DNA of 39,063 nucleotides from an uncultured Hungatella sp. (GTDB taxonomy: Bacteria; Bacillota; Clostridia; Lachnospirales; Lachnospiraceae), in the NCBI GenBank assembly GCA_947066955.1, contig CAMTAF010000026.1, forward strand, positions 1 to 39,063, given 5' to 3'. This document shows, piece after piece, positions 6,550 to 31,369 of this stretch. Position 1 is the stretch's first letter; each line of letters opens with the position of its first letter. Under the pieces are notes generated by a model. That model was not told the DNA's origin. It searched no databases and saw only the letters and a list, made by a program, of their open reading frames with translations. The position numbers and the translations under genes were made by a program.

Positions 6550-6572
6550 AATCCTTCTCCTCCTTTTTAAGA

Positions 6573-6763
6573 TATCACCACGCGCCGCTGCGCGTCACCT
6601 GCCAGCTCGTCGGAAGGCAGTAACAGTTCAGACAACCCCCTGAACTGTTACTAGATGCTCTCCGACCACTATGTTTTCTTACGGTCAGCGCAGCGAGTGC
6701 GCAGACCTATCTAAACGGTTATGGAAGGCATCTTAGAAACGCTTACGTGTTTGCCTTCCTCCT
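6573..6763 (-). repeat. Interspersed repeat, copy 1, with a nested insertion
   Basis: On the plus strand a core at 6573-6620 matches copies at 10408-10454 and 25085-25133 (shared TCACCTGCCAGCTCGTCGGA). The outer hairpin GGAAGGCA/TGCCTTCC is at 6723-6759. In copy 3 core and outer hairpin are contiguous. Here about 100 bases (6621-6722) separate them and GGAAGGCA is present on both sides, as expected if another element inserted with a short target duplication. The repeat lies immediately upstream of the PHP gene and overlaps the end of the MFS gene. Confidence 0.7.
6620..6651. repeat. GTAACAGTTCA hairpin repeat, copy 1
   Basis: GTAACAGTTCA (6620-6630) pairs perfectly with TGAACTGTTAC (6641-6651). 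Both arms are identical to those at 28799-28829, while the loops differ. It is part of the insertion nested within repeat copy 1. Confidence 0.75.
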
Positions 6764-7917
6764 CTAATACGGTTGAGGCACTCTACTGTGGCGGTCATGA
6801 CTGCCACAAGGGATATTAGATACCAGGGATACAGCCAGATTCCTGCCAGCCCTGAGAGCATCCCGAACAGCGGCGGCATGGCCATGGTGCCCACATAGGC
6901 GCAGGCCATCTGCATCCCCATGATGGCCTGGGACTTATCCTCCCCGAAATTTTCCGGGGTCTCGTGGAGAAGGGCCGGGTAGATGGGCGCGCACCCAACC
7001 CCTACCATCACCAGACCGATCCCTGTCACGCTCTGGCCAAAGGGAAGCAAAAGGAGCAGAATCCCGCAAAAGGCTACGCCCTGCCCCAAGCGGACCATGG
7101 CTTTGTCGTCCAGTTTTAAGGTGATGAAACCGCACAAAAACCTTCCCGCCGTGATTCCCAGATAAAACAGGGAGGCCCATTTGGCGGCTGCCTCCGCCGT
7201 CACTCCCCGCTTAAGCACCATGTAGCTGGCAGCCCACAGCCCCGCTGTCTGTTCCAGGGCGCAGTAACAAAAAAACGATGCCAGAGCCGGCTTTGCTCCC
7301 GGCAGCTTTAACAAATCTTTGACGCCAAGGCTTTTTCTTTCTCCCTGGCCTGCAACATCCCCCTGACGGCCTCCTGTCTCCTTCCATTTGGAAAGCGTGG
7401 CGAACAGCACGGCCGTGAGCACGATCTGGAGAAGGGACACCACCCTGTAGCCCGTGTTCCAGGAAAATCCCCCTGTCAGACAGGCTCCCATGATGTAGGG
7501 CCCCAAGGACGCCCCCACTCCCCAGAAACAGTGAAGCCAGCTCATATGCCTGGCTTTATAGTGGATAGCCACATAGTTGTTGAGCGCCGCGTCCACCGCT
7601 CCCGCCCCCAGCCCGTAGGGGAAGGCCATCACGCACAAAGCGGAAAATGAACGGGCCATGGAAAATCCCCACAGCGCTGCCGCCGTCAGCGCCACGCTGG
7701 CCGCTGTCACCCTGCCTGTACCCAGCTTTCTGGTGAGAGTGTCGCTGTACAGGCTGGATACGATGGTCCCCGCCGATATGATCATGGAGATGACCCCAGC
7801 CCAGGACACGGCGACCCCCAGTTCCCCCTGCATGCTGGGCCACGCTGCCCCCAAAAGGGCATCGGGAAGACCCAGACTGATAAACGCCACATAGATGATT
7901 CCAAGCAATAAACTCAT
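6733..7917 (-). CDS. MFS transporter (exporter or sugar:proton type)
   Basis: A 394-residue protein with about 12 hydrophobic segments and no other domain. It begins MSLLLGIIYVAFISLGLPDA, a form seen in MFS proteins annotated as fucose/glucose-type or drug transporters. I chose the ATG at 7917 because AAAGGA lies just upstream and the first membrane segment starts there; the 28 residues possible further upstream are basic and unlikely. The substrate cannot be told. It diverges from an AraC regulator, its likely controller. The last residues (QTRKRF) and the stop codon are encoded inside an interspersed repeat. Confidence 0.8.
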   Translation of the reverse strand: MSLLLGIIYVAFISLGLPDALLGAAWPSMQGELGVAVSWAGVISMIISAGTIVSSLYSDTLTRKLGTGRVTAASVALTAAALWGFSMARSFSALCVMAFPYGLGAGAVDAALNNYVAIHYKARHMSWLHCFWGVGASLGPYIMGACLTGGFSWNTGYRVVSLLQIVLTAVLFATLSKWKETGGRQGDVAGQGERKSLGVKDLLKLPGAKPALASFFCYCALEQTAGLWAASYMVLKRGVTAEAAAKWASLFYLGITAGRFLCGFITLKLDDKAMVRLGQGVAFCGILLLLLPFGQSVTGIGLVMVGVGCAPIYPALLHETPENFGEDKSQAIMGMQMACAYVGTMAMPPLFGMLSGLAGIWLYPWYLISLVAVMTATVECLNRIRGGRQTRKRF

Positions 7918-10390: not shown

Positions 10391-10407
10391 CTCTGACTCC
10401 TTCTTGT

Positions 10408-10463
10408 TATCGGCACGCACCGCTTTGCGGCACCTGCCAGCTCGTCGGAAGGCATCCTTCCTC
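10408..10463 (-). repeat. Interspersed repeat, copy 2
   Basis: The plus strand carries the same core as copies 1 and 3, including CACCTGCCAGCTCGTCGGAA, followed by a shortened GGAAGGCA/CCTTCCTCC end. It fills the gap between the marR stop codon and the MATE ribosome site, in the same orientation as the other copies. Confidence 0.75.
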
Positions 10464-10898: not shown

Positions 10899-10952
10899 AA
10901 TAGCGGCGCCTCCTGTACCAGATGCCGGCGGGCGATCCGCCGGGCAGGGTTT

Positions 10953-11001
10953 TAGTATGATTTCAGACTTACAGTATAGTATGATTTCAGACTTGTGTCA
11001 A
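10953..11001 (-). promoter_or_regulatory. marR promoter with two tandem operator-like repeats
   Basis: On the minus strand TTGACA (10996-11001) and TATACT (10973-10978) are 17 bases apart. The 18-base sequence TAGTATGATTTCAGACTT (plus strand) occurs at 10953-10970 and 10977-10994, 24 bases apart. One copy fills the promoter spacer and one covers the start site. A GC-rich hairpin (CCGGCGG/CCGCCGG, 10925-10943) lies in the leader. Confidence 0.75.
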
Positions 11002-11059
11002 GAGGAATTTTCCAAAGCAAAGGGATTATAAATACATGGAAATAAATATTAAAATATCT

Positions 11060-11123
11060 TATAATAAGTAATGATCTGACGCACACACAGCTTAACGTCT
11101 TGGCAGGTGGTGGCCTGATATAA
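11060..11123 (+). other. Promoter-leader element A, similar to one at 27066
   Basis: A -10 like TATAAT (11060-11065) is followed by a leader sharing CTGA at the same offset, a CRCAC block, GGTGGTG and ATATAA with the segment at 27066-27128, using only a one-base gap. I see no family name for it; it may be a structured leader or a repeat. Confidence 0.35.
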
Positions 11124-11163
11124 CCATAGAGACACTTTTTCAAATCATAAAAGGGGTGATATA

Positions 11164-11319
11164 ATGATCAATACTGCGGAAACCATTGAGAATTTAGCTC
11201 GACAACTTGAACGAGCATGTATTTTAAGTGATTTAAAAGAGTGCAAAACTTTAGAGGAATTTCAAGAGCTCACGAAAAAGTATGAAACACTCTGTGCCAA
11301 TGACAAGATTAACCAGTAA
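11164..11319 (+). CDS. Small hypothetical protein, 51 residues
   Basis: I found this short gene by reading downstream of AGGGGTGATATA. It begins MINTAETIENLARQLERACI and ends NDKINQ. It is charged, rich in Glu, Lys and Leu, has no membrane segment and is probably helical, with two cysteines about 8 residues apart. A perfect terminator follows 11 bases after the stop and a -10 box precedes it, so it looks like a complete single-gene unit. I do not recognise the family and propose no function. Confidence 0.65.
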   Translation: MINTAETIENLARQLERACILSDLKECKTLEEFQELTKKYETLCANDKINQ

Positions 11320-11329
11320 CGATCAACCC

Positions 11330-11356
11330 GGGCCTGTTAAGCCGCAGGCCCTTTTT
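11330..11356 (+). terminator. Rho-independent terminator of the 51-residue gene
   Basis: GGGCCTG (11330-11336) pairs with CAGGCCC (11345-11351) around an eight-base loop and is followed by TTTTT. Confidence 0.85.
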
Positions 11357-11427
11357 CCTTGTTGTCGTTGTCTGTCTGACTGCCTGACATATATGGCATA
11401 TTTGCGGACATGAATGAGTAAACCAGG

Positions 11428-11456
11428 TTGTGTTCTCCAGGGAAATGATATATACT
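11428..11456 (+). promoter_or_regulatory. Probable promoter of the PARG gene
   Basis: TTGTGT (11428-11433) and TATACT (11451-11456) are 17 bases apart, 43 bases before the start codon. Confidence 0.5.
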
Positions 11457-11499
11457 GATTTTACAAAAAGAAAAATTAAGAAACAGGAGGCCCCTATCC

Positions 11500-12369
11500 A
11501 TGTGGATCGATTACACCGCTATGATCCAGGAGACCATCAGGATCTCGGAACAAGGCTGTTACAGCAAGAATGATGAGACAAAGACCCTTACAACTTCCGC
11601 CCAGGAGAGAGAAGATGTTATCCTCCTTCCCCCGGAAACGCTCCGCCAGATGACAGAATCGAAAAATGCCCCAGCCCCCTGCCTCGCCGGCGGAACCTGT
11701 CAGGTGTTCATGAGCAACCAGGATTCCTTCCAGGCGGCCCGGGACATGGCCGAATGCTATCACATTGAGGACACCCGCAAGATCCTTGTCCTGAATTTCG
11801 CCAATCCGGTCTCTCCCGGCGGCGGAGTGCTCAGGGGGGCCCGGGCCCAGGAAGAGGATCTCTGCCGAAAAAGCACTCTCTATCTGTCCCTGAGAACAGA
11901 GAAGGCCAGGGCCATGTATGAATATAATCAGTCCTTAAATGATCACCGCTCCTCCGACTACATGCTCCTCTCGCCCAATGTGGAGATCTTTCGGGATTCC
12001 GACAACGGCCTTCTTGATGAGACCATGGTGGTGGGCGTTCTCACCGCCGCAGCGCCCATATCTCCCTTCGGAATCGGAGACAAGGCGAAAGAGGAGCTTC
12101 TTGCGATCCTGGGGATCCGGATCCGGGAGGTGCTTCACGCCGCTGCCTTCTATGGCTACCAGTATCTCGTCCTGGGCGCATGGGGATGTGGCGCTTTCGG
12201 AAATGACGCCGCCCAGGTGGCCAAACTTTTCTACGAAGAACTGCGAAGCTTTGGGCGTCCCTTAAGTTCCATCGACTCCTGCTTTCGCGCCATTGTGTTC
12301 GCGGTGCTCAATCCCTCGAAAAGCGGATACAATTACAAATATTTTGAGAAATACTTTGGGGATTTTTAA
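11500..12369 (+). CDS. Bacterial-type poly(ADP-ribose) glycohydrolase, TIGR02452/DUF2263 macrodomain family
   Basis: A 289-residue soluble protein. It carries the bacterial PARG signature GGG-X7-QEE: Gly107-109, then Gln117-Glu118-Glu119, in a context beginning FANPVSPGGG. The second glutamate pair residue is the catalytic position known in this family. The C-terminal part (VLGAWGCGAFGNDAAQVA) is the phosphate-binding loop region of the macrodomain. These enzymes remove ADP-ribose chains or units from targets. An AGGAGG site lies 9 bases before the ATG. It is a single-gene unit ending in a terminator and faces a Panacea/NADAR operon, so three ADP-ribose or antitoxin-linked proteins sit within 2 kb. 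Confidence 0.88.
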   Translation: MWIDYTAMIQETIRISEQGCYSKNDETKTLTTSAQEREDVILLPPETLRQMTESKNAPAPCLAGGTCQVFMSNQDSFQAARDMAECYHIEDTRKILVLNFANPVSPGGGVLRGARAQEEDLCRKSTLYLSLRTEKARAMYEYNQSLNDHRSSDYMLLSPNVEIFRDSDNGLLDETMVVGVLTAAAPISPFGIGDKAKEELLAILGIRIREVLHAAAFYGYQYLVLGAWGCGAFGNDAAQVAKLFYEELRSFGRPLSSIDSCFRAIVFAVLNPSKSGYNYKYFEKYFGDF

Positions 12370-12386
12370 AAACAAAGGCAGTATAA

Positions 12387-12418
12387 AGGAGAGGCTTTTG
12401 TCCTCTCCTAACTTTTTT
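12387..12418 (+). terminator. Terminator after the PARG gene
   Basis: AGGAGAGG (12387-12394) pairs with CCTCTCCT (12402-12409) and is followed by TTTTTT at 12413-12418. It may also serve the Panacea gene on the other strand. Confidence 0.8.
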
Positions 12419-12422
12419 CCGC

Positions 12423-12854
12423 TTAAAGCCCGCCATAATATAATGCCATGCTTTCTTTTGTAATCACATTATCGCATCCCGCACCAGACGTAACTCCCTC
12501 TCTCGCCTTAATCCACGGGTCCTCCATATGTGTCAACTGGCTGAGCCACTGGGCATTGTGGCTGCCATAGTGCTCTAATACTCTATCTATAGTATCTTTC
12601 TGATTATCAGACAGATCTCCCTCACCGTCGGTTTCATCTCTCGCGCTCACCAAGTATTTACCCTGTGTTTTGAAAAACAACTCCTGGCAAACCGGACCAT
12701 TCGCCCATGCTTGAAAGTCTTCCTCAAATAAAGGAGAATCATCCCAGACAAGAGACCATGCCTGAGAATAATAGCACAGCTTCTGAAGTTTCATGGTTGA
12801 CATAGAGCCAGCTTGTTCCAGAATATATTTTGCCGTATCAAAAATATTTGCCAT
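12423..12854 (-). CDS. Panacea-domain (SocA/GepA-like, DUF4065) protein, possible antitoxin
   Basis: A 143-residue soluble protein. MKLQKLCYYSQAWSLVWDD followed by FQAWANGPV is the hallmark of the Panacea/SocA/GepA family (residues about 20-60). In that family members are antitoxins for many unrelated toxins, or phage-associated proteins. Its ATG is only 3 bases after the NADAR stop codon, and AAAGGAGAGG lies inside the NADAR 3' end, so the two are almost certainly made together. Panacea antitoxins are usually paired with the adjacent gene, which makes the NADAR protein the candidate partner. That pairing is inference. Confidence 0.82.
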   Translation of the reverse strand: MANIFDTAKYILEQAGSMSTMKLQKLCYYSQAWSLVWDDSPLFEEDFQAWANGPVCQELFFKTQGKYLVSARDETDGEGDLSDNQKDTIDRVLEHYGSHNAQWLSQLTHMEDPWIKAREGVTSGAGCDNVITKESMALYYGGL

Positions 12855-12857
12855 TTT

Positions 12858-13418
12858 TTAGCCCCTCTCCTTTCCCAAAAGCTCATCCCTCACCTGGGTC
12901 AGGGCAAAGCCCAGAAGGTTGGTCCCCCTCCACTTAAGAGGATCCTGGACGTCAGGGTTCGCCTTTCCCATGCCAATGCCCCAGATCCGGTCCCTGGGGC
13001 TGGCTTCCACCAGTATCCGCTTCTCCGTGCCTTTCATATACTGCCACAACTCCGGATTCTGGGAAAATTTGGCCTCATTCCCCCGCCTCACAATGTCAAA
13101 ACATGCTTTGTCCCATGTCTCCTTGTCAAAATTCCTCACCGCCCGGCCAAAGGCCTTCATCTCCTTTGGGTGAACGGCCTCCATAATCTTCTGAAGCATG
13201 TCTGTGTCATGAAATATCCTGGCCTTCTCCGCCATCATAAACTGCTCGGCGCAGGTGTACGGAATTCCTTCCACTACAAACCGGCAGGACCACCACTGGC
13301 TTAAACAGGTCTCGCTGATATGTCCATCCCGTTCCGGAGTGTGACCCCAGAAAAAAACAAATTTAAAGGACTGGCCCTGTCTGCAGGCCTCCTGAAGATC
13401 TTTCAGATTGTAGATCAT
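12858..13418 (-). CDS. NADAR-family protein (YbiA-like, DUF1768)
   Basis: A 186-residue soluble protein. FFWGHTPE, LSQWWSCRFVVEGIPYTCAE, MMAEKARIF and the C-terminal WGIGM with WRGTNLLGFAL are the conserved blocks of NADAR proteins, in order. The family cleaves N-glycosidic bonds of ADP-ribose-like compounds; some members remove ADP-ribose from DNA guanine and act as antitoxins to DarT2-type toxins. I chose the ATG at 13418, with GGGGTGA five bases upstream, over a GTG at 13427. It leads an operon with the Panacea gene from a strong promoter. No DarT or other ADP-ribosyltransferase is visible in the window. Confidence 0.85.
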   Translation of the reverse strand: MIYNLKDLQEACRQGQSFKFVFFWGHTPERDGHISETCLSQWWSCRFVVEGIPYTCAEQFMMAEKARIFHDTDMLQKIMEAVHPKEMKAFGRAVRNFDKETWDKACFDIVRRGNEAKFSQNPELWQYMKGTEKRILVEASPRDRIWGIGMGKANPDVQDPLKWRGTNLLGFALTQVRDELLGKERG

Positions 13419-13472
13419 AAGTCTCACCCCGCCTCTCGATATTTTAGATTCACATCCAAACTGGTACTATCC

Positions 13473-13501
13473 ATTATACAGAGCCCCTCCGCCAAGGTCA
13501 A
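13473..13501 (-). promoter_or_regulatory. Promoter of the NADAR-Panacea operon
   Basis: On the minus strand TTGACC (13496-13501) and TATAAT (13473-13478) are 17 bases apart, about 55 bases before the NADAR ATG. It is one of the best promoters in the window. Confidence 0.75.
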
Positions 13502-13508
13502 CCTCAAT

Positions 13509-13566
13509 CGAGTAGGGGAGGCTTTCCCCCTACTCGCTGCGCTTGGGCGAGGCCGCGCAAGCGGCC
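13509..13566. repeat. Two adjacent GC-rich hairpins upstream of the NADAR promoter
   Basis: CGAGTAGGGG (13509-13518) pairs perfectly with CCCCTACTCG (13527-13536). GGCCGC (13551-13556) pairs with GCGGCC (13561-13566) around a GCAA tetraloop. The linker ACTCGCTGCGCT also occurs, in reverse complement, near 6680-6700. It is probably an intergenic repeat rather than a gene. Confidence 0.5.
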
Positions 13567-13592
13567 ACATTTCCTTTCCGCCCCATGTGCAT

Positions 13593-13640
13593 AAAAAAGC
13601 GCCCCGGGCTGGTCCTCTGCCAACGCCGGGGCGGTTTTTT
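13593..13640. terminator. Bidirectional terminator after the mannitol-type PTS gene
   Basis: CGCCCCGG (13600-13607) pairs with CCGGGGCG (13626-13633), with an A run on the left and TTTTTT on the right. It lies 12 bases past the EIICBA stop codon. Confidence 0.8.
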
Positions 13641-13651
13641 ATAAGGAATTT

Positions 13652-15514
13652 CTAAGACAGCTGTCCCAGTACCCAATCCACATCATCCGTGGTCTTTAAG
13701 GTTTCCAAAAGAGCCGAGTCCTCCAGAAGGGTACACAGTTTGCTCAAAAGATCCAGATGCTCGTCGCCGATTCCGGCGATGCCGAACACCAGATAGGCTT
13801 TCTCCGCGCCAAAGTCCACGCCCTCGGGATACTGGAAGCACACGATTCCCGTCTTCTTCACCGTGCCCTTGGCCTGGGTGGTTCCGTGTGGGATGGCCAC
13901 GCCCATACCGATGTAGGTGGATACCAGCTTCTCCCTCTCCTGCATGGCGTCGATGTAGGTCTCATCCACATATCCCAAGTTCACCAGCATCTGCCCTGCT
14001 GCCTGGATGGCCTCCTCCTTTGTCACAGGCTTCTGTCCCAAGTGGATCCCCTCCCGGATGATCACCTGTTTTTTAATGGGAACATCGGGGATGACGATGT
14101 CCGTGTTCTCACCTGCCGGAGCCGCCGGAGCGTCTCCCGTGGTCAGCTGCACATAGAGGGCGTCGAGAGCCGGGTCTGCGAGGAAATTGCCGATGGTGAT
14201 CAGCTGCGCCTGGGGAGCGGATTTTCTGGCCCTGTCCGCCAGTGTGGTCTGAACTACGGCGATGTCGCAGTCAGAGGGGATATTGTCAACCGATGTATTG
14301 CTCACGGCAATATCCGGGCGGTTGGCCTTGATCCGGTTGCGGAACTTGGTGGCTCCCATAGCGGAAGATCCCATGCCGGCGTCGCAGGCAAAGATGATCT
14401 TTTTGATCTCCGAGGATTTCTCGATGGTTCCCGGCACAACCGGGGTTCCCTTGGCCTGAGCCTTCATGGCTGCCATCTCCTTCTGGGCCTCCTCCAAGCT
14501 CTTTCCTCCTGCCAGCTTCACCAGCACAGAGGCCACGGCAAAGGAAATGCCTGCGGAAATTGCCACTCCTATAAGCACTTTCACCATATCCGGCCCCGGG
14601 GTCATCATCAGATAAGCGATGATGGAGCCAGGGGAGGCCGGTCCCACCAGCCCGCATCCGGTCATGTTAAACCAGAAGATGGCGGCAATATTGCCCAGGA
14701 TGGGAGCGATAATCACCAGAGGATTCATCAGGATATAGGGAAAATAAATCTCGTGGATGCCGCCCAGCAGGTGGATGATCACAGCGCCGGGGGCAGAGTC
14801 CTTAGTGGCCTTGTCCTTGCAGAAGAACATGTAGGCCAGCAGTACTCCAAGGCCTGGGCCCGGGTTGGGCTCCAGCATGTACATGATGGATTTTCCCGTC
14901 TCCGCGGCCTGGGCCGTGGCGATGGGAGTAAAAATGCCGTGGTTGATGGCATTGTTCAAAAACAGAACTTTCGCCGGTTCGATGAACACAGCTACCAGGG
15001 GCAGCAGCTCATTCTGAACCAGAACATTGACCCCTGCCGACAAAAGGCTGAGGATCCCGCTCATCACCGGTCCGATGACAACGTAGCCCAGCATAGCCAG
15101 GATCATGCCCATGATGCCTGCTGAAAAATTGTTGATCAGCATCTCAAAACCCGCGGGCATGTGGCCGTCCATGGCCTCGTCAAACTTTTTGATACAGAAA
15201 CCCGCCAGGGGGCCCATGACCATGGCCGCCATCAGCATGGTGATATCGGTGTTGCTCATGATGGCGCCGATCACCGCGATAGCGCCTACCACACGCCCCC
15301 TGTCACCGCCGATCATCCTGCCGCCGGTGGAGGCGATGAGGATAGGGATCAAGTAGGTGAGCATGGGGCCTACCATGCTGTTGAACCCGGCGTTGGGTAT
15401 CCATCCGGTGTCTATAAACAGCGCTGCCAGAAAACCGAAGGCGATCAGGGCGCCGATGTTGGGCATGACCATTGCTGATAAAAATTTGCCAAATTTCTGT
15501 ACTTTATTTTTCAA
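13652..15514 (-). CDS. mtlA: Mannitol-type PTS EIICBA permease
   Basis: A 620-residue membrane transporter that phosphorylates a hexitol during uptake. The domain order is EIIC (1-345, with GGIHEIYFPY at 251-260), EIIB (about 370-460, phosphorylated Cys377 in FACDAGMGSSAMGA) and EIIA (about 480-620, active His543 in MGVAIPHGT). This layout and the GIHE motif are those of MtlA. It is the last gene of an operon with a kinase, a SorE-like dehydrogenase and a DeoR regulator, ending at a strong terminator. No MtlD-type mannitol-1-phosphate dehydrogenase is present, so mannitol itself is likely but not proven. Confidence 0.85.
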   Translation of the reverse strand: MKNKVQKFGKFLSAMVMPNIGALIAFGFLAALFIDTGWIPNAGFNSMVGPMLTYLIPILIASTGGRMIGGDRGRVVGAIAVIGAIMSNTDITMLMAAMVMGPLAGFCIKKFDEAMDGHMPAGFEMLINNFSAGIMGMILAMLGYVVIGPVMSGILSLLSAGVNVLVQNELLPLVAVFIEPAKVLFLNNAINHGIFTPIATAQAAETGKSIMYMLEPNPGPGLGVLLAYMFFCKDKATKDSAPGAVIIHLLGGIHEIYFPYILMNPLVIIAPILGNIAAIFWFNMTGCGLVGPASPGSIIAYLMMTPGPDMVKVLIGVAISAGISFAVASVLVKLAGGKSLEEAQKEMAAMKAQAKGTPVVPGTIEKSSEIKKIIFACDAGMGSSAMGATKFRNRIKANRPDIAVSNTSVDNIPSDCDIAVVQTTLADRARKSAPQAQLITIGNFLADPALDALYVQLTTGDAPAAPAGENTDIVIPDVPIKKQVIIREGIHLGQKPVTKEEAIQAAGQMLVNLGYVDETYIDAMQEREKLVSTYIGMGVAIPHGTTQAKGTVKKTGIVCFQYPEGVDFGAEKAYLVFGIAGIGDEHLDLLSKLCTLLEDSALLETLKTTDDVDWVLGQLS

Positions 15515-15626
15515 GACAGTCCCTCCTCAACACTGCCAGAGCGCGGGGGAACCGATCAGTCAACACCCCGCAGCAGCAGCCAAAGGCGCATGCAGGCATG
15601 CCCATCTGGCTCGCTGTCTGCGGGAA

Positions 15627-16388
15627 TTACAAAACCGTCACATCATATTTCCGGCATTCTTCAAGAAATTCCTCCGGAAGATTTCCGTCAGAGACCACCA
15701 TGTCAATCTTATCCAGCCCGCAGATGCCGAAGGTGCTCCATGCCCCGATCTTGGATGAATCCATGAGCACGATGGTCTGCTCCGCCTGGTCTATGGCTGT
15801 CTGCTTCAAGATGGCTTCGTCACTGCTCCCGCAGGTAAACCCTGCCCTGGAGCTGTAGCCTGTCACTCCCAGAAAGGTCTGAGAAAAATTAATCCTCTCC
15901 AGTTCCCTCACAGCTGAGATTCCATAGACGCTCTGGCTGTAGCGGTTTAAAGTCCCTCCCGGTATCATCACGCTGGGCTTTGACAAATTGGCGAACTCCG
16001 TGGCGCAGCTTAATCCCGTAGTGCAGATCAGATTCGACTGATCCGGAAACTGGCGGGCAAGCAGGGTTGTAGTGCTCCCGGAATCCACAAAGATGGTTGT
16101 GTCCGGCCTTATGAGAGAGAGGGCCTTCTCCGCGATCTTCTGTTTTTGGGCAATATTGCGGACAGAGCGGTTGCTCAAGTAATCGTCCGTGCCTATGACC
16201 ACCTGGACAGACTTTGCGCCGCCGTGGATCCTCACGATCCTCCGGGCCTCGTCCAGAAGCTTTAGGTCCGTGCGCAGAGTCATCTCTGACACATTGGGAA
16301 AGGTGTCTTTTATCTGGGAAAATGTGACTGTTCCCTGTTCATTGATCAGTTCCACTATCGCGTTTCTCCGCGTTTCCATTGAATCCAA
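15627..16388 (-). CDS. DeoR/GlpR-family transcription regulator
   Basis: A 253-residue sugar-phosphate-responsive repressor. It has an N-terminal helix-turn-helix (about 4-60, FPNVSEMTLRTDLKLLDEA) and a C-terminal DeoR sensor domain (about 75-235, with IFVDSGSTTTLLAR and TAIDQAEQTIVLMDSSKIG). I chose the TTG at 16388 over the ATG at 16379 because GGGAGG is six bases upstream of the TTG but fifteen from the ATG. A GC-rich hairpin ends within that ribosome site. It lies in the hexitol operon and probably binds the repeated TTGAAA-type sites in front of the first gene. Confidence 0.85.
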   Translation of the reverse strand: MDSMETRRNAIVELINEQGTVTFSQIKDTFPNVSEMTLRTDLKLLDEARRIVRIHGGAKSVQVVIGTDDYLSNRSVRNIAQKQKIAEKALSLIRPDTTIFVDSGSTTTLLARQFPDQSNLICTTGLSCATEFANLSKPSVMIPGGTLNRYSQSVYGISAVRELERINFSQTFLGVTGYSSRAGFTCGSSDEAILKQTAIDQAEQTIVLMDSSKIGAWSTFGICGLDKIDMVVSDGNLPEEFLEECRKYDVTVL

Positions 16389-16397
16389 AATCGTCCT

Positions 16398-16425
16398 CCC
16401 GTCCGCGCCGAAACCCGCGGACGGG
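16398..16425 (-). promoter_or_regulatory. Hairpin touching the deoR ribosome-binding site
   Basis: CCCGTCCGCG (16398-16407) pairs perfectly with CGCGGACGGG (16416-16425). On the transcript, the three G bases at the foot of the stem are the first half of the GGGAGG ribosome site of the DeoR gene. It could lower deoR translation or stabilise the upstream message. Confidence 0.55.
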
Positions 16426-16440
16426 AATTCTGGCGCTGAA

Positions 16441-17709
16441 TTATTTTTCTATAAAATTAGCCAGCAGATACTCCTCTGCCTCCGGGCACCACAGGCCCTT
16501 GTGGGCGTCCACGATGTCCGCCAGTTCCACCAGGCGGCGGTCCTTGTTCTCCTCGCCCTTGGCGCGCAGGTCTGTCAGCGCGGTGAGGGGCATGGACAGC
16601 CATGTGTAGATCAGCTTCTTGCCTCCGGGGATCTTGGGCAGGTTCAGGGTAGTCTCGGCAACCGCATCCAGGCCTCCGATGTGTGTCACCATCACGGCGG
16701 GATCGATCCTCTTGGCCGCTGTCAGCTCCAGGGACTCGATCATGTCCGCGGTGTTGCCGCCTGTTGTCCCCATAACATGGGTGGAGTTATAATGTACATC
16801 ATAAAAATTGATGGTGGCGCTGAACTTGTTGTCCGTGGGGCCTGCGAAGAAGTTGAGGCAGCCGTCCCGCCCCAGGATATCGCTGGACTGCTTGATCACC
16901 GCCGCCACAGGGGCATAGCAGAGGACATCGTCGTAGCCGGTTCCTCCGGAGATCCGCATAAGCTCCGCCACGGGATCCTCAAATTTCCCTGTATTCACAA
17001 AGTGAACCTCAATGCCCTCTTTCTGGTACTCTGCCGGCGGGAACAGCTGGGCCGCTCTGTCAAGACGGTCCTGGGCTAAGTCCGTAACCACTACCAGAGA
17101 GGGGCGCACATCCCGGTGCAGGGCATAAGTCAGAGCTCCCAGACCCATGGGGCCGGCGCCTGCCATGATGGCCAGCTTCCCGTTCTCCCGGATGCCCATC
17201 TGGTGGGTGTACACGCCCATCTGGGTGTGGTAGGCCGCGTTAAATGCGCCGATGCTGCAGGACATGGGCTCTGCCAAGGATGCCTCATAGTAGGCTCTCC
17301 CCTTGTACTCCAGCAGGCATCCCAACTCCATAACCTCTGCCGGGATCACGCAGTAGGTGGTATCCCCGCCAAAGAACTCGTAGGAATATCCCGGGCTCCA
17401 CATGGTCCCCTTGTAGTTCAGAGCCGGCTGCAAAGTAAACTTCATGCCGGGCTTAAAGGTATCCTGATGGTTCTTTCCCACCTTCACAATATCCCCCGCG
17501 AACTCGTGGCCCATGATGGCCGGATGCTCCGCCACGTCGTCGTGCACCCTCTTGTGCTTCTCACCCAGGATCGCGCACTTGTATGTAGACATGCAGATGC
17601 TGTCAGAAACTACCTTTACCAGGATCTCGTCGTCGGTGATCTCCGGAAGCTCAAACTCCTCCAGTCTCAAATCATTTGCTCCGTGCAGTCTCACGCCTTT
17701 TGCTTTCAT
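16441..17709 (-). CDS. Zinc-binding dehydrogenase, SorE-like (ketose-1-phosphate/hexitol-phosphate)
   Basis: A 422-residue medium-chain dehydrogenase. The catalytic-domain region contains HPAIMGHEFAGDIVKVG (zinc-site histidine and glutamate). The nucleotide fold is marked by AIMAGAGPMGLGALTYAL. It resembles L-sorbose-1-phosphate reductase (SorE), which interconverts L-sorbose-1-phosphate and glucitol-6-phosphate, and is longer than ordinary alcohol dehydrogenases, as SorE is. It sits between the kinase and the regulator in the hexitol operon. With a mannitol-type PTS, oxidation next to the phosphorylated carbon would give fructose-1-phosphate, the substrate of the kinase encoded just upstream; this is inference. 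Confidence 0.75.
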   Translation of the reverse strand: MKAKGVRLHGANDLRLEEFELPEITDDEILVKVVSDSICMSTYKCAILGEKHKRVHDDVAEHPAIMGHEFAGDIVKVGKNHQDTFKPGMKFTLQPALNYKGTMWSPGYSYEFFGGDTTYCVIPAEVMELGCLLEYKGRAYYEASLAEPMSCSIGAFNAAYHTQMGVYTHQMGIRENGKLAIMAGAGPMGLGALTYALHRDVRPSLVVVTDLAQDRLDRAAQLFPPAEYQKEGIEVHFVNTGKFEDPVAELMRISGGTGYDDVLCYAPVAAVIKQSSDILGRDGCLNFFAGPTDNKFSATINFYDVHYNSTHVMGTTGGNTADMIESLELTAAKRIDPAVMVTHIGGLDAVAETTLNLPKIPGGKKLIYTWLSMPLTALTDLRAKGEENKDRRLVELADIVDAHKGLWCPEAEEYLLANFIEK

Positions 17710-17743
17710 AATAAAATACTCCTTTCTTATAATAAACCTTATT

Positions 17744-18676
17744 TTATTTAACTACAAGCACCACTTTGGGGATCAGTTCTTTAATCACATCATACTCGGC
17801 CGCCTGGGTGCCGCTGCACATCACGTTGGCGGCTCCTGTGGCAGTGGACAGCCGGACCGTGTCCTCCAGGCTCATGCCTCTCTCCTCTGCCACCGCCAGG
17901 GCAGCTACCACGCTGTCTCCGGCTCCCACGGTGCTTCCCACAGGAACCTTTAAGCCTTCCGCCGAGACAGTGGCATCTCCCGTGAGATACAGGGCCCCGT
18001 CTCCTCCCAGAGAGATCACCACCTTTTCAATATAGTGCTCCCTCATCAGCTTCCTTCCGGCCTCTTCCAGCTCATCTTTCGTGGTCAGGGTTCTTCCAAA
18101 CAGCCTGGAAAGCTCATGGTTGTTGGGTTTGACTAAGTAGGGGGACGCCTTGAGCCCTTCCGCCAGAAGATCTCCGTCCGCATCCAGGATTACCTTGGCG
18201 CCTGCGCCCTTAAAGGCCTCTGTCCAGGTTCGATAAGTGTCTTTTGGCGCTCCCTTGGGAAGGCTGCCGGAGAGAACCACGATGTCCCCTTCATCCACCC
18301 TCTCCAGCAGTTCCTTCAGAAGGTTCCCCAGGGTCTCCTCCGTGACCGTGACACCCGGCTCGTTGATGTCCGTGTTGGTATGTCTCGCCGGATCCACCAC
18401 CTTGAGATTTGTCTTGGTCTCCCCCTCTACAAAATGAAAGCAAGTCTCCAACCCCATCTCCTCAAGCGCCGCCAGGATGGCTTTTCCAGTGGAACCGCCC
18501 AGAATACCGGCAGCTATGCTCTTCCCCTCAAGCTTTTGGATGACCTTGGAGACATTGATGCCTTTTCCGCCCGGGTCTGTCCTCATGGCTGAAATCCGGT
18601 TGACGCTGTCCACGGCAAATTCCCGGATCTCCACTGTCTTGTCCAGAGCCGGATTCAATGTTACAGTGTAAATCAT
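17744..18676 (-). CDS. fruK: 1-phosphofructokinase-type PfkB kinase
   Basis: A 310-residue soluble sugar-phosphate kinase. It opens MIYTVTLNPALDKTV, a FruK/LacC/PfkB start. It carries DPGGKGINVSKVI (substrate-binding signature) near residue 34 and VPVGSTVGAGDSVVAALAVA (ATP site with catalytic Asp) near residue 250. It phosphorylates fructose-1-phosphate or tagatose-6-phosphate to a bisphosphate. It is the first gene of the hexitol operon, from a strong promoter flanked by repeated sites, with a 34-base gap to the dehydrogenase. The gene symbol reflects the best-fitting subfamily. Confidence 0.8.
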   Translation of the reverse strand: MIYTVTLNPALDKTVEIREFAVDSVNRISAMRTDPGGKGINVSKVIQKLEGKSIAAGILGGSTGKAILAALEEMGLETCFHFVEGETKTNLKVVDPARHTNTDINEPGVTVTEETLGNLLKELLERVDEGDIVVLSGSLPKGAPKDTYRTWTEAFKGAGAKVILDADGDLLAEGLKASPYLVKPNNHELSRLFGRTLTTKDELEEAGRKLMREHYIEKVVISLGGDGALYLTGDATVSAEGLKVPVGSTVGAGDSVVAALAVAEERGMSLEDTVRLSTATGAANVMCSGTQAAEYDVIKELIPKVVLVVK

Positions 18677-18698
18677 GTTACCCCTCCTCTTTGTTATT

Positions 18699-18782
18699 GT
18701 TGAAATAACATCTTAGATTTTTGTTTCAACATCTATGACCCTATAATAGCAGGGTTTTCCCCGGTTGTCAACTGTTGTTTCA
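18699..18782 (-). promoter_or_regulatory. Hexitol operon promoter with three DeoR-type sites
   Basis: On the minus strand TTGACA (18766-18771) and TATTAT (18743-18748) are 17 bases apart. The sequence GTTGAAAYAA recurs: GTTGAAATAACA at 18699-18710 (plus), GTTGAAACAA at 18721-18730 (minus) and TTGAAACAACA at 18773-18782 (minus). One copy is upstream and two are downstream of the promoter. The DeoR protein of the operon is the likely binder. Confidence 0.7.
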
Positions 18783-18810
18783 AAAATAATTTAATTATTT
18801 TCAAAAGTTC

Positions 18811-18838
18811 TTGCACCTTTTGAATTTTTCTATATAAT
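18811..18838 (+). promoter_or_regulatory. Promoter of carB
   Basis: TTGCAC (18811-18816) and TATAAT (18833-18838) are 16 bases apart, 31 bases before the ATG. An AT-rich inverted repeat (AAAATAA/TTATTTT) lies just upstream. Confidence 0.6.
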
Positions 18839-18869
18839 AGAATGAGAAAAAAACAAGGAGGACAACAAA

Positions 18870-25060: not shown

Positions 25061-25084
25061 ATAAAAACCCTCCTAATTAATCAG

Positions 25085-25182
25085 TATCGGCACGCGCCGC
25101 CTGCGGCGTCACCTGCCACTTCGCCGGAAGGCATCCTAAAAATGCTGCGCATTTGCCTTCCTCCTCAGTTTGCCTTCCTCCT
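25085..25182 (-). repeat. Interspersed repeat, copy 3 (most complete)
   Basis: The core at 25085-25133 is followed directly by the outer hairpin GGAAGGCA (25126-25133)/TGCCTTCC (25154-25161). A second TGCCTTCCTCC lies at 25171-25181. On the minus strand it ends about 20 bases before the DsbA start codon, the same placement as copies 1 and 2. Confidence 0.75.
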
Positions 25183-27160: not shown

Positions 27161-27388
27161 ATGGCCATCAGTTATAAAAGATTATGGAAACTGCTGATTG
27201 ACAAAGATATGAAGAAAAAGGATCTGCAACAGTTGGCCGGGATAAGCGCGGCATCGATCACAAAACTTGGAAAAAACGAGAATGTGAATACTGAAATAAT
27301 CGAAAAAATTTGTGTGGCCCTTCAATGTGATATTAGTGATATTATGGAAATGGCGGATAAAGGAGGGATTAGTAATGGGAGAACATAA
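27161..27388 (+). CDS. XRE-family helix-turn-helix regulator
   Basis: A 75-residue DNA-binding protein. The Cro/C1-type helix-turn-helix covers residues about 10-60 (KKKDLQQLAGISAASITKLG). It has the form often seen beside restriction-modification genes in Lachnospiraceae. It overlaps the DUF1016 nuclease start by 14 bases, so the two are made together and it probably represses the pair. Confidence 0.85.
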   Translation: MAISYKRLWKLLIDKDMKKKDLQQLAGISAASITKLGKNENVNTEIIEKICVALQCDISDIMEMADKGGISNGRT

Positions 27389-28397
27389 TCTAACTCTTGT
27401 TCAAAACATCTACACCGAGATAAAAGAAACTCTCCTGCTGTCGCGCAATCAAGCATACAGTGCGGTCAATTTTGCGATGGTGCAGGCTTATTGGCAAATC
27501 GGGCGCATTATCATAGAACATGAGCAGGACGGAAATGAACGGGCCGGTTACGGGAAATCTGTGCTTCAGGAATTGTCCAGCCGCCTGACCAAAGACTTTG
27601 GTAAGGGCTTTTCCGTGCGGACGTTGCAGCAGATGAAGAAATTTTATGTAATGTTTCCAAATACGAACGCACTGCGTTCGCAATTGACGTGGACGCATTA
27701 TCGCCTTTTGCTATCAGTGGAAAATGAGCAGGCCAGACAGTGGTATATGGATGAAGCCATCGCTTCCGCTTGGTCGAGCCGCCAACTGGAGCGGCAAATT
27801 TCCACACTGTATTATGAGTGCCTTCTTGCAAGCCGAGATCAGACTCCTGTAAGAGATGAAGCTATGGAACTTACGGCTCCCTTAGCTGCGAAAGATTTCA
27901 TCAAAGACCCCTATGTCCTGGAATTTCTTGACCTGAAAAATTATCCGGCCTTGCGGGAGTCGGATTTGGAACAGGCACTGATTAATAAATTACAGGAATT
28001 CCTATTAGAGTTGGGGCGTGGTTTCTGCTTTGTCGCCAGACAGAAGCTGATGCGTTACGAAGATGAGGATTTTTATCTGGACCTTGTGTTTTACCACAGC
28101 ATTTTGAAGTGCCATGTACTAATTGATTTGAAAATCGGCAAGCTGACCCACGGTGACATTGGGCAGATGGACAGTTACATTCGGATGTTTGATGCGCTTT
28201 ACAAAAACGAGGACGACAATCCTACCATCGGCATCATTCTGTGTTCCCAGAAGAACGAGGCAATCGTCAAATACTCTGTCTTGAATGACGCTCAGCAAGT
28301 CTTTGCTTCTCGTTATCGGTTCGCGCTGCCCACTGCGGAAGAATTGCAGCGTGAAATAGAAGCCGAGCGCAGACGGATTGAGGAACCAGATGACTGA
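27375..28397 (+). CDS. PDDEXK nuclease-domain protein, DUF1016/YhcG family
   Basis: A 340-residue soluble protein. I chose the ATG at 27375 (MGEHNLTLV), which has AAGGAGG upstream. Residues about 10-150 form the DUF1016 N-terminal domain (YWQIGRIIIEHEQ, LTWTHYRLLLSV). Residues about 170-330 form the nuclease domain, with LDLVFYHSILKCHVLIDLKIG giving the D...D-x-K active site. YhcG-type proteins are linked to restriction systems and mobile DNA. No methylase or specificity gene adjoins it, so it forms a stand-alone pair with the XRE regulator. A terminator follows. Confidence 0.85.
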   Translation: MGEHNLTLVQNIYTEIKETLLLSRNQAYSAVNFAMVQAYWQIGRIIIEHEQDGNERAGYGKSVLQELSSRLTKDFGKGFSVRTLQQMKKFYVMFPNTNALRSQLTWTHYRLLLSVENEQARQWYMDEAIASAWSSRQLERQISTLYYECLLASRDQTPVRDEAMELTAPLAAKDFIKDPYVLEFLDLKNYPALRESDLEQALINKLQEFLLELGRGFCFVARQKLMRYEDEDFYLDLVFYHSILKCHVLIDLKIGKLTHGDIGQMDSYIRMFDALYKNEDDNPTIGIILCSQKNEAIVKYSVLNDAQQVFASRYRFALPTAEELQREIEAERRRIEEPDD

Positions 28398-31203: not shown

Positions 31204-31287
31204 CCAGAACGGCTCCTTTCTCAAAGCGCAGCCGCCTCCCCTTTGACGGAGCGAAAAGCGCGCTCTGTTATTCAATATATACCTTAT

Positions 31288-31369
31288 GGCACGAAGTGCC
31301 CCTGCTCCGGAGGAGCATGAATTACGGTATGCCCTCGGGTATACCTTGGGTATATCTTATGGTATATAC
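31288..31369. promoter_or_regulatory. Hairpins and phased GGTAT boxes upstream of the flavodoxin gene
   Basis: The gap between the flavodoxin start and the LRR locus (31204-31488) holds no convincing gene. It contains small perfect hairpins (GGCAC/GTGCC 31288-31300; TGCTCC/GGAGCA 31303-31317). Four boxes of the form GGTATRYC follow, starting at 31326, 31338, 31349 and 31361, that is every 11-12 bases, on one face of the helix. They may bind a regulator. Confidence 0.45.

Follow-up and report, generated by a model that had tools for sequence, protein, structure and literature searches.

ADP-ribose hydrolases that act without a coupled transferase are known from the ARG-centred host systems, in which a one-component Nudix-HTH regulator is thought to sense ADP-ribose. 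According to the sections of PMC9503650 devoted to them, these systems are built around an enzyme of the ADP-ribosylglycohydrolase (ARG) fold, use Nudix or WYL transcription factors and carry Macro and NADAR as extra variable genes. NADAR proteins are also found paired with transferases, with DarT1 in DarTG1 (PMC11543638, in part) and with YarT in the YarT-YbiA pairs of myxobacteria (PMC11125620, in part). The stand-alone bacterial-type PARGs SCO0909 and DRB0099 are presented in passages of PMC11833690 as protective enzymes, and E. coli was shielded from an RNA-targeting transferase. The role of NADAR outside DarT operons and that of bacterial PARGs are called unclear or unexplored in the corresponding passages of PMC11125620 and PMC11833690. 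NrtR is released from DNA by ADP-ribose, and pnuC-nadR is one of its targets (PMC12735969 and PMC6800001, in part); the word NADAR occurs in neither of these papers. Finally, the Panacea domain is shared by the PanA-PanT pairs, some of which are prophage-derived (PMC8832971, in part).

We analysed a window of 39,063 nucleotides from the draft genome of an uncultured Hungatella sp. (240 contigs, 92% complete), in which the original prediction had recognised a PARG facing a NADAR and a Panacea gene and had considered that the three might form one system. The three gene identities were confirmed by Pfam and TIGRFAM profile scores, and the positions and strands given for the genes were also correct. 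PARG (11500..12369, + strand) is convergent to the NADAR (12858..13427, - strand) and Panacea (12423..12854, - strand) genes, of which NADAR comes first, its stop lying 3 nt from the start of Panacea. At a probability close to 0.7, we read this locus as what remains, after remodelling, of a conserved operon for ADP-ribose clean-up that is linked to NrtR, with the hydrolases likely uncontrolled and Panacea an orphan. What the sequences show is the protein families and their catalytic residues, a conserved operon in the relatives, an assembly that lacks NrtR, the lineage of PARG and the origin of Panacea; we infer the substrates, the regulation by ADP-ribose and the lack of control in the window.

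The window PARG is a stand-alone protein of 289 aa that matched PF10021 (E=6e-32) and TIGR02452 (174 bits, cut-off 50). The predicted GGG-X7-QEE motif was present and lined up with the solved PARGs 3sig and 5zdf, in agreement with the family signature GGG-X6-8-QEE quoted from part of PMC5966428. By signature and family score it is a bacterial-type PARG like SCO0909 and DRB0099, although in the part of PMC11833690 describing it DRB0099 adjoins genes for a ligase and a phosphatase-kinase rather than NADAR and NrtR.

The NADAR protein (PF08719, E=4e-53, 180.4 bits, cut-off 35.1) counts 189 aa from GTG 13427 or 186 aa from ATG 13418; the latter start, in register with the relatives, is the likely one. 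Its residues E61, K68 and E141 corresponded to E43, K50 and E125 of the P. nicotianae enzyme in an alignment to 8bau, if the chain numbering is taken to be shifted by two residues. These residues are important in characterised NADARs (PMC11543638, in part), so that the window protein shares with the NADAR of DarTG1 the residues used for removal of ADP-ribose from guanine. Judged from a full-length match it is of the YbiA type, as in YarT-YbiA, but no ART gene adjoins it; DUF3990-NADAR neighbours seen in other relatives look nearer to that design. PADLOC assigned the NADAR to the candidate class PDC-M42C and gave no match for PARG or Panacea, and the score against the anti-phage NADAR equivalog NF053876 was 41 bits at a cut-off of 240. 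The latter score is far below its cut-off, and neither result was taken as a sign of defence. NADAR-domain proteins are listed among the defence proteins identified in a 2026 paper (PMC13092281, in part), with no link to the window NADAR clade established. In the plasmid search NADAR was found in 68 records, every match being below 60% identity.

As predicted, no ADP-ribosyltransferase gene was visible among the 26 window proteins scanned with Pfam. The same 26 proteins included no ARG domain (PF03747) and no regulator of the kind found in the ARG-centred systems. Elsewhere in the genome there were three DUF3990 matches and a single DarT match, on contig C11, adjoining a macrodomain gene. Membership of the window NADAR in a DarTG1 system was rejected, as no DarT was found beside it. 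Its action as an antitoxin in trans to the distant DarT was not favoured, since that DarT has its own macrodomain neighbour.

The Panacea protein (143 aa, SocA-like antitoxin domain) scored 70.9 bits against PF13274 (E=2e-19, cut-off 25.7) and 44.6 bits against the SocA equivalog NF047745, short of its cut-off of 190. With two prophage copies, L219 and L220, it shared 89% and 88% amino acid and 86% and 85% DNA identity. In blastn, window positions 12859-12412 matched L219 5996-6443 over 448 bp, and the homology ended 25 nt into the overlapping partner gene, whose ATG lies at L219 6419. Only the first 8 codons of the phage partner are left, as a remnant overlapping the 3' end of Panacea (12412..12436, - strand), and no adjacent partner toxin gene was found beside the window Panacea. 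The intact partner belonged to phrog_8366, of unknown function, in all five copies tested, three of which gave weak NsnC matches. GC3 of the window Panacea was 0.44 versus 0.67-0.76 in four other genes measured. The gene looks constrained (dN/dS of about 0.07 against L219), and 10 of 13 polarised amino acid changes fell on its own branch. The plasmid search returned 31 records with Panacea, all matches again below 60% identity. By its sequence, Panacea is a prophage-type gene in origin and an orphan antitoxin with its partner cut off, which sets it apart from the PanA-PanT pairs, and it has no demonstrated role in ADP-ribose chemistry. The predicted NADAR-Panacea operon is correct as a layout.

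The three-gene combination did not recur in the sets searched. Among 200 family genomes, Panacea lay near NADAR or PARG in the window genome only; it was absent within 3 kb of the 80 nearest NADAR loci and from the neighbourhood of 80 viral NADAR loci. Conversely, no NADAR was found near Panacea in the 80 tested of 86 Panacea-bearing genomes found in the phylum, three of which carry NADAR on another contig or far away. Within these sets the trio was adjacent in this strain alone, and the idea of a three-part PARG-NADAR-Panacea system was abandoned on that ground.

A different association was found in the relatives. Among the 80 nearest of at least 587 NADAR loci, NrtR was encoded within 3 kb in 56 cases and PARG in 38; both genes were present in 34 and at least one of them in 60, leaving 20 with neither (short flank in 9 of the 80; 42 without PARG). 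Figures from this selection cannot be extended to NADAR in general, since in the family set PARG lay within 5 kb in only 4 of the 39 NADAR genomes. All the NrtR and PARG genes counted were on the NADAR strand, and the domains, including the NrtR-type Nudix plus winged helix, were confirmed by Pfam on examples. Within the genus, five of six other NADARs of the window type adjoin both PARG and NrtR; the neighbourship of NADAR and PARG is thus more than chance. NADAR and NrtR are fused in L036 and L063 (Pfam) and in L061 (overlap). KptA was found near 7, PnuC near 15 and a NadR kinase-like gene near 16 of the 80 loci. A small conserved gene in these neighbourhoods was assigned to no family by Pfam. 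We consider the NrtR-linked operon, which the original prediction could not see as NrtR is missing from the window, to be of greater weight than the trio. Our literature search found no description of an NrtR-NADAR-PARG operon.

Compared with the ARG-centred systems (PMC9503650, in part), the operon, found mainly in Bacillota, has NADAR and a macrodomain-type PARG instead of an ARG-fold core enzyme. Of the 64 NrtR copies, among which three genomes are represented twice, 56 kept the strict Nudix signature, in contrast to the loss of Nudix catalysis in the NrtRs described in parts of PMC12735969 and PMC6800001. The data support NADAR and PARG as neighbours that recur in an ADP-ribose-processing context with no DarT-like toxin coupled to them, and the pair may therefore fairly be read as removing marks that a different enzyme has made. 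In this respect the original prediction is supported; in its three-part system it is not.

GATAWTATC repeats preceded 18 of the 20 operons that begin with NADAR and include NrtR, or 15 of 17 when only distinct loci are counted, many in pairs 14 nt apart, compared with 0.12 per shuffled sequence, the motif having been picked by eye from the same regions in which it was later counted. They also preceded 7 of the 33 loci in which no NrtR had been placed. The GATAATATC repeats of the relatives are predicted to be the NrtR operator.

By identity and tree, the window NADAR belongs to the operon clade. It was 64-71% identical to six NADARs adjoined by NrtR and/or PARG, and the tree placed it among NrtR/PARG-linked NADARs, next to L064, a NADAR from the same genus that has both partners (support 84). 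In the PARG tree all 38 NADAR-linked PARGs fell into a single clade of 42 rows (support 100), with the window PARG outside; both trees were quick searches with long-branch warnings. No same-strand PARG of the operon clade was found; the window PARG is convergent and of another clade, and its position beside NADAR may for this reason be a coincidence. No GATAWTATC repeat occurred in the 200 nt upstream of the window NADAR, one mismatch being allowed. NrtR (PF21906) had no match in the window genome, whose completeness of 92% means that the gene could lie in the missing part. As neither NrtR nor an operator-like repeat was found, and the only PARG found is convergent and of another lineage, production of the two hydrolases probably escapes control by ADP-ribose. 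The window NADAR and PARG are best read as a rewired ADP-ribose-removal pair, probably lacking the ADP-ribose switch.

Alternative explanations were weighed against this reading. The most serious of them, though improbable, is that a variable site bounded by MarR and CarB merely accumulated the three genes and a sugar PTS operon, all of them functionally unlinked. The block of about 8 kb holding PARG, Panacea, NADAR, PTS, DeoR, ADH-like and PfkB genes (10899..18869) is indeed not present at this site in two congeners (L330 and L331), there are dispersed repeats immediately outside (10397-10458) and within it (13505-13591), PARG is of another lineage and Panacea is foreign by composition. On the other hand, the genome was found to have one NADAR and one PARG, and these adjoin each other, as members of the two families do in many relatives. 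From the 50 PARG match rows obtained for 200 family genomes of about 3 Mb, we estimate that chance would place a PARG within 5 kb of roughly one NADAR in a thousand. It is still less likely that NADAR acts in metabolite repair, as an N-glycosidase of riboflavin intermediates unrelated to nucleic-acid ADP-ribosylation. Its TIGR02464 score (152 bits, cut-off 73.7) and the first description of E. coli YbiA as such an enzyme (PMC11543638, in part) speak for this, but relatives of the protein are fused to or lie beside NrtR-family proteins and PARG, and the residues for ADP-ribosyl-guanine hydrolysis are conserved.

A joint defence or toxin-antitoxin-like action of PARG, NADAR and Panacea against a foreign ADP-ribosyltransferase is largely refuted here, and we give it very little credence. 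Adjacency of the three genes, the 3 nt spacing of NADAR and Panacea on one strand, the catalytic residues kept in both hydrolases, the preserved Panacea frame and the PDC-M42C match are outweighed by the lack of recurrence (1 of 200 family genomes and none of the three sets of 80), by the origin of Panacea as half of a cut phage pair and by the low NF053876 score. Equally slight is the chance that the Panacea insertion is an assembly artefact, as a draft in 240 contigs, a phage match of only 448 bp and an arrangement seen in one genome might suggest: the gene differs from the two phage copies at 62 and 64 sites out of 429 nt, chiefly in third codon positions, both junctions lie inside the contig, and the NADAR end offers a ribosome-binding site (by eye).

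According to the preferred reading, a remodelled NrtR-linked operon, the two enzymes probably strip ADP-ribose tags from nucleic acids. NADAR would remove ADP-ribose from guanine bases and PARG would remove ADP-ribose that is O-linked, for instance in poly-ADP-ribose or at the 2'-OH of RNA. In the relatives, free ADP-ribose would lift NrtR repression, and the Nudix domain of NrtR, its catalytic signature intact in most copies, would convert ADP-ribose to AMP and ribose-5-phosphate. KptA and PnuC-NadR would give some of the operons a link with RNA repair and with the salvage of NAD. In the window, the single NADAR found beside a convergent, likewise single PARG of another lineage would probably work without the ADP-ribose switch. 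More tentatively, the NADAR-NrtR-PARG set, in part with KptA and PnuC-NadR, may form a self-regulating regulon of nucleic-acid de-ADP-ribosylation and NAD recovery in Bacillota and some Bacteroidota. Foreign transferases would mark DNA or RNA, the hydrolases would free ADP-ribose, NrtR would permit induction and its Nudix activity would reset the system; the window lineage would have lost the switch and captured a phage antitoxin beside NADAR, possibly kept to neutralise the partner of incoming related prophages. We doubt this extended scheme more than we favour it.

A conserved operon in which NADAR and PARG are joined by a member of a repressor family that senses ADP-ribose, and for which an operator is predicted, offers a concrete testable setting for ADP-ribose induction, for the split of substrates between the hydrolases and for the phenotype under transferase attack. 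The window provides an example of such a module decaying and being rebuilt, in which the Panacea next door can be phage debris, not a component. Upstream of NADAR, a sigma-70-like promoter (TTGACC-17-TATAAT, 11/12 matches; 13473..13501, - strand) was recognised by motif match, and no GATAWTATC-like repeat follows it. In the gap between the PTS gene and NADAR, the terminator scan placed a terminator-like hairpin (13615..13634, + strand), and by eye the sequence around it is also T-tailed on the - strand.

Profile searches confirmed the families and positions of the three genes named in the original prediction: a PARG gene at 11500-12369 on the plus strand (PF10021, 6e-32; TIGR02452, 174 bits) and, on the minus strand, a Panacea gene at 12423-12854 (PF13274, 2e-19) and a NADAR gene at 12858-13427 (PF08719, 4e-53; TIGR02464, 152 bits). 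The predicted GGG-X7-QEE motif of PARG was present, with both glutamates aligning to those of solved PARGs, and NADAR residues E61, K68 and E141 aligned to residues of tested importance in other NADARs. By these alignments both window enzymes look catalytically intact. The proposed three-part system did not recur: among 200 family genomes, only the window's own had Panacea no more than 5 kb (by coordinates) from either NADAR or PARG, and Panacea and NADAR matches co-occurred in six. Panacea was found near NADAR neither among the best 80 of at least 587 NADAR loci nor among 80 viral NADAR loci. Own genome counted, 87 of 398 phylum genomes had a Panacea match; 80 of the 86 others were checked for NADAR, and three carried it, none close to Panacea. 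In our assessment the trio is a NADAR-NrtR-PARG operon that has been rewired, in part by accident.

That operon emerged from a search for relatives of the window NADAR in a species-genome collection. Of at least 587 loci found, the best 80 were retained, so the set leans to the window NADAR clade; 71 of them had 3 kb or more of flank on each side, and three (L087, L090, L110) came from genomes also present in the family set. Within 3 kb of NADAR, 56 of these best 80 of at least 587 loci had an NrtR-type gene and 38 a PARG; 34 had both, 60 at least one of the two and 20 neither. KptA lay within the same distance in seven and Panacea in none, and all NrtR, PARG and KptA genes counted shared the NADAR strand. 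Pfam searches on examples confirmed Nudix plus the NrtR winged helix, PARG and KptA. The usual order was NADAR-NrtR-PARG in Lachnospiraceae loci and NrtR-NADAR-PARG in Paenibacillaceae loci, and NADAR-NrtR fusions occurred in three loci (L036, L061, L063). Within 4 kb, 15 of the same best 80 loci had PnuC (PF04973) and 16 an AAA_28 gene, which we read as the NadR kinase domain. NrtR and PARG accompanied five of the six other full-length-type NADAR loci in the genus, and DUF3990 the sixth. In the family set NADAR was present in 39 of 200 genomes, with PARG within 5 kb in four, the window's included; many of these NADARs belong to other kinds. As far as gene neighbourhoods tell, the pairing of NADAR with PARG is genuine in relatives. 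The window NADAR was placed among the operon NADARs, adjoining that of a congener whose operon is complete (support 84; quick tree, long-branch warnings).

In six loci (L040, L042, L044, L045, L046, L060) three genes stood consecutively on the same strand: DUF3990, a small conserved gene with no Pfam family, and NADAR. DUF3990 may be ART-like; if so, these rows would be a second ART-NADAR design. Eight of the 80 viral NADAR loci (L237, L262, L263, L269, L284, L286, L291, L299) had an NrtR-query match, perhaps to Nudix only, in the fetched stretch; a PARG-query match was seen in none.

No NrtR match was found in the window's own genome (92% complete), which has one NADAR and one PARG match. In the PARG tree, a 42-member clade (support 100) took in all 38 NADAR-linked PARGs; the window PARG fell outside it and grouped with seven others (support 97; quick tree, long-branch warnings). 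Two of these seven partners were scanned, and both were larger ADP-ribose hydrolases with two or three such domains per protein: a single large frame in L190 (1453-3558) joins PARG to an ADP-ribosylglycohydrolase (PF03747), and one in L068 (949-3333) adds to these two a Macro start at the locus edge.

In NrtR-bearing operons, GATAWTATC repeats were located upstream of NADAR, mostly close downstream of the -10 box. When a single mismatch was tolerated, at least one repeat occurred within 200 nt upstream in 18 of 20 NADAR-first operons (15 of 17 distinct loci), a count that is descriptive because the motif was picked by eye in the same regions. Two or more repeats, neighbours spaced 14 nt, were present in 13 of the 20, and the mean was 1.65 vs 0.12 in shuffled sequence. 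The motif was found in 22 of 39 NrtR-first operons and in seven of 33 loci lacking a placeable NrtR start; the 33 include the window and four Aquimarina loci with diverged NrtR. At the same settings none was found upstream of the window NADAR, where a promoter-like TTGACC-17-TATAAT was kept.

According to PMC11833690 and PMC11543638, NADAR enzymes take ADP-ribose off guanine in both DNA and RNA, whereas the targets of bacterial PARGs are RNA 2'-OH groups and phosphate ends; PMC6800001 and PMC12735969 state that ADP-ribose binding releases NrtR proteins from DNA. The strict Nudix signature was present in 56 of 64 NrtR copies (three genomes counted twice), so these may hydrolyse ADP-ribose too. 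The simplest model would be clean-up under feedback control: hydrolases would strip ADP-ribose marks, the freed ADP-ribose would be sensed and then split, and NAD would be rebuilt in operons with PnuC-NadR. In the window the hydrolases are retained and the switch is probably missing. Candidate sources of the marks would be a phage, a competitor or an enzyme of the host itself; in the own genome DarT adjoins a macrodomain gene, and DUF3990 was matched three times, once beside the small conserved gene that accompanies DUF3990 in relatives too. An older paper by de Souza and Aravind on NAD-utilising pathways may mention the NADAR-NrtR-PARG operon. In the literature searched, seen in part and with most subscription journals outside its scope, no description of this operon was found; the closest was section 3.8 of PMC9503650, which proposed operons built around ARG and controlled by Nudix or WYL regulators, with NADAR and Macro listed as further genes of variable presence.

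The closest Panacea proteins found were encoded on viral (prophage-type) contigs L219 and L220 (89% and 88% identity). The window region matched phage DNA at 86% identity over 448 nt with abrupt ends, beginning at 12859, five nt ahead of the Panacea start codon (two of them in the NADAR stop), and ending at 12412, 11 nt beyond the Panacea stop and within the ninth codon of an overlapping phage gene. Gene order at eight of 10 viral Panacea loci identifies this following gene as that of a partner, 151-173 aa long, which was phrog_8366 in five of five tested; the window retains eight of its codons. To judge from its sequence, the window Panacea is a phage-type gene with its partner cut off. Its GC3 was 0.44 vs 0.67-0.76 in four other window genes measured. 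Against L219, dN/dS was about 0.07 (dN 0.056, dS 0.85), therefore the reading frame was kept across both branches combined; of 16 amino-acid differences, 10 fell on the window branch, three on the phage branch and three were unclear, a mild hint of relaxation. The phage partner (L219 6419-6883 and equivalents) is uncharacterised, Pfam being blank in five of six copies with a sub-threshold match in the sixth.

The window is one 39-kb contig of a 4.22-Mb, 240-contig, 92% complete assembly. The flanking genes scanned were all ordinary: GntR/UTRA regulators, HAD, PHP, MFS, AraC, MATE and MarR on one side, and a PTS gene, DeoR, an alcohol dehydrogenase-like gene, PfkB and CarB on the other. Congener loci L330 and L331 had HAD, PHP, MFS, AraC, MATE and MarR, then CarB after 170 and 387 nt; in congener locus L329 CarB adjoined the MATE gene too, the order differing farther out. 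By this comparison, the PARG-to-PfkB stretch of about 8 kb is extra in the window. Upstream of the MarR-MATE genes (10953-10994), an 18-nt sequence is perfectly repeated in direct orientation, the two copies starting 24 nt apart, and is a possible MarR operator. A dispersed, often tandem repeat of about 45-100 nt (6555-6619, 6723-6766, 10397-10458, 25066-25166) occurred at many own-genome sites and in congeners. A second, upstream of the NADAR promoter (13505-13591), had copies at other own-genome loci, and a possible third (31278-31342) was seen in one other place. A YhcG/DUF1016 PDDEXK nuclease gene, of a family often found near defence genes, was located at 27312-28397.
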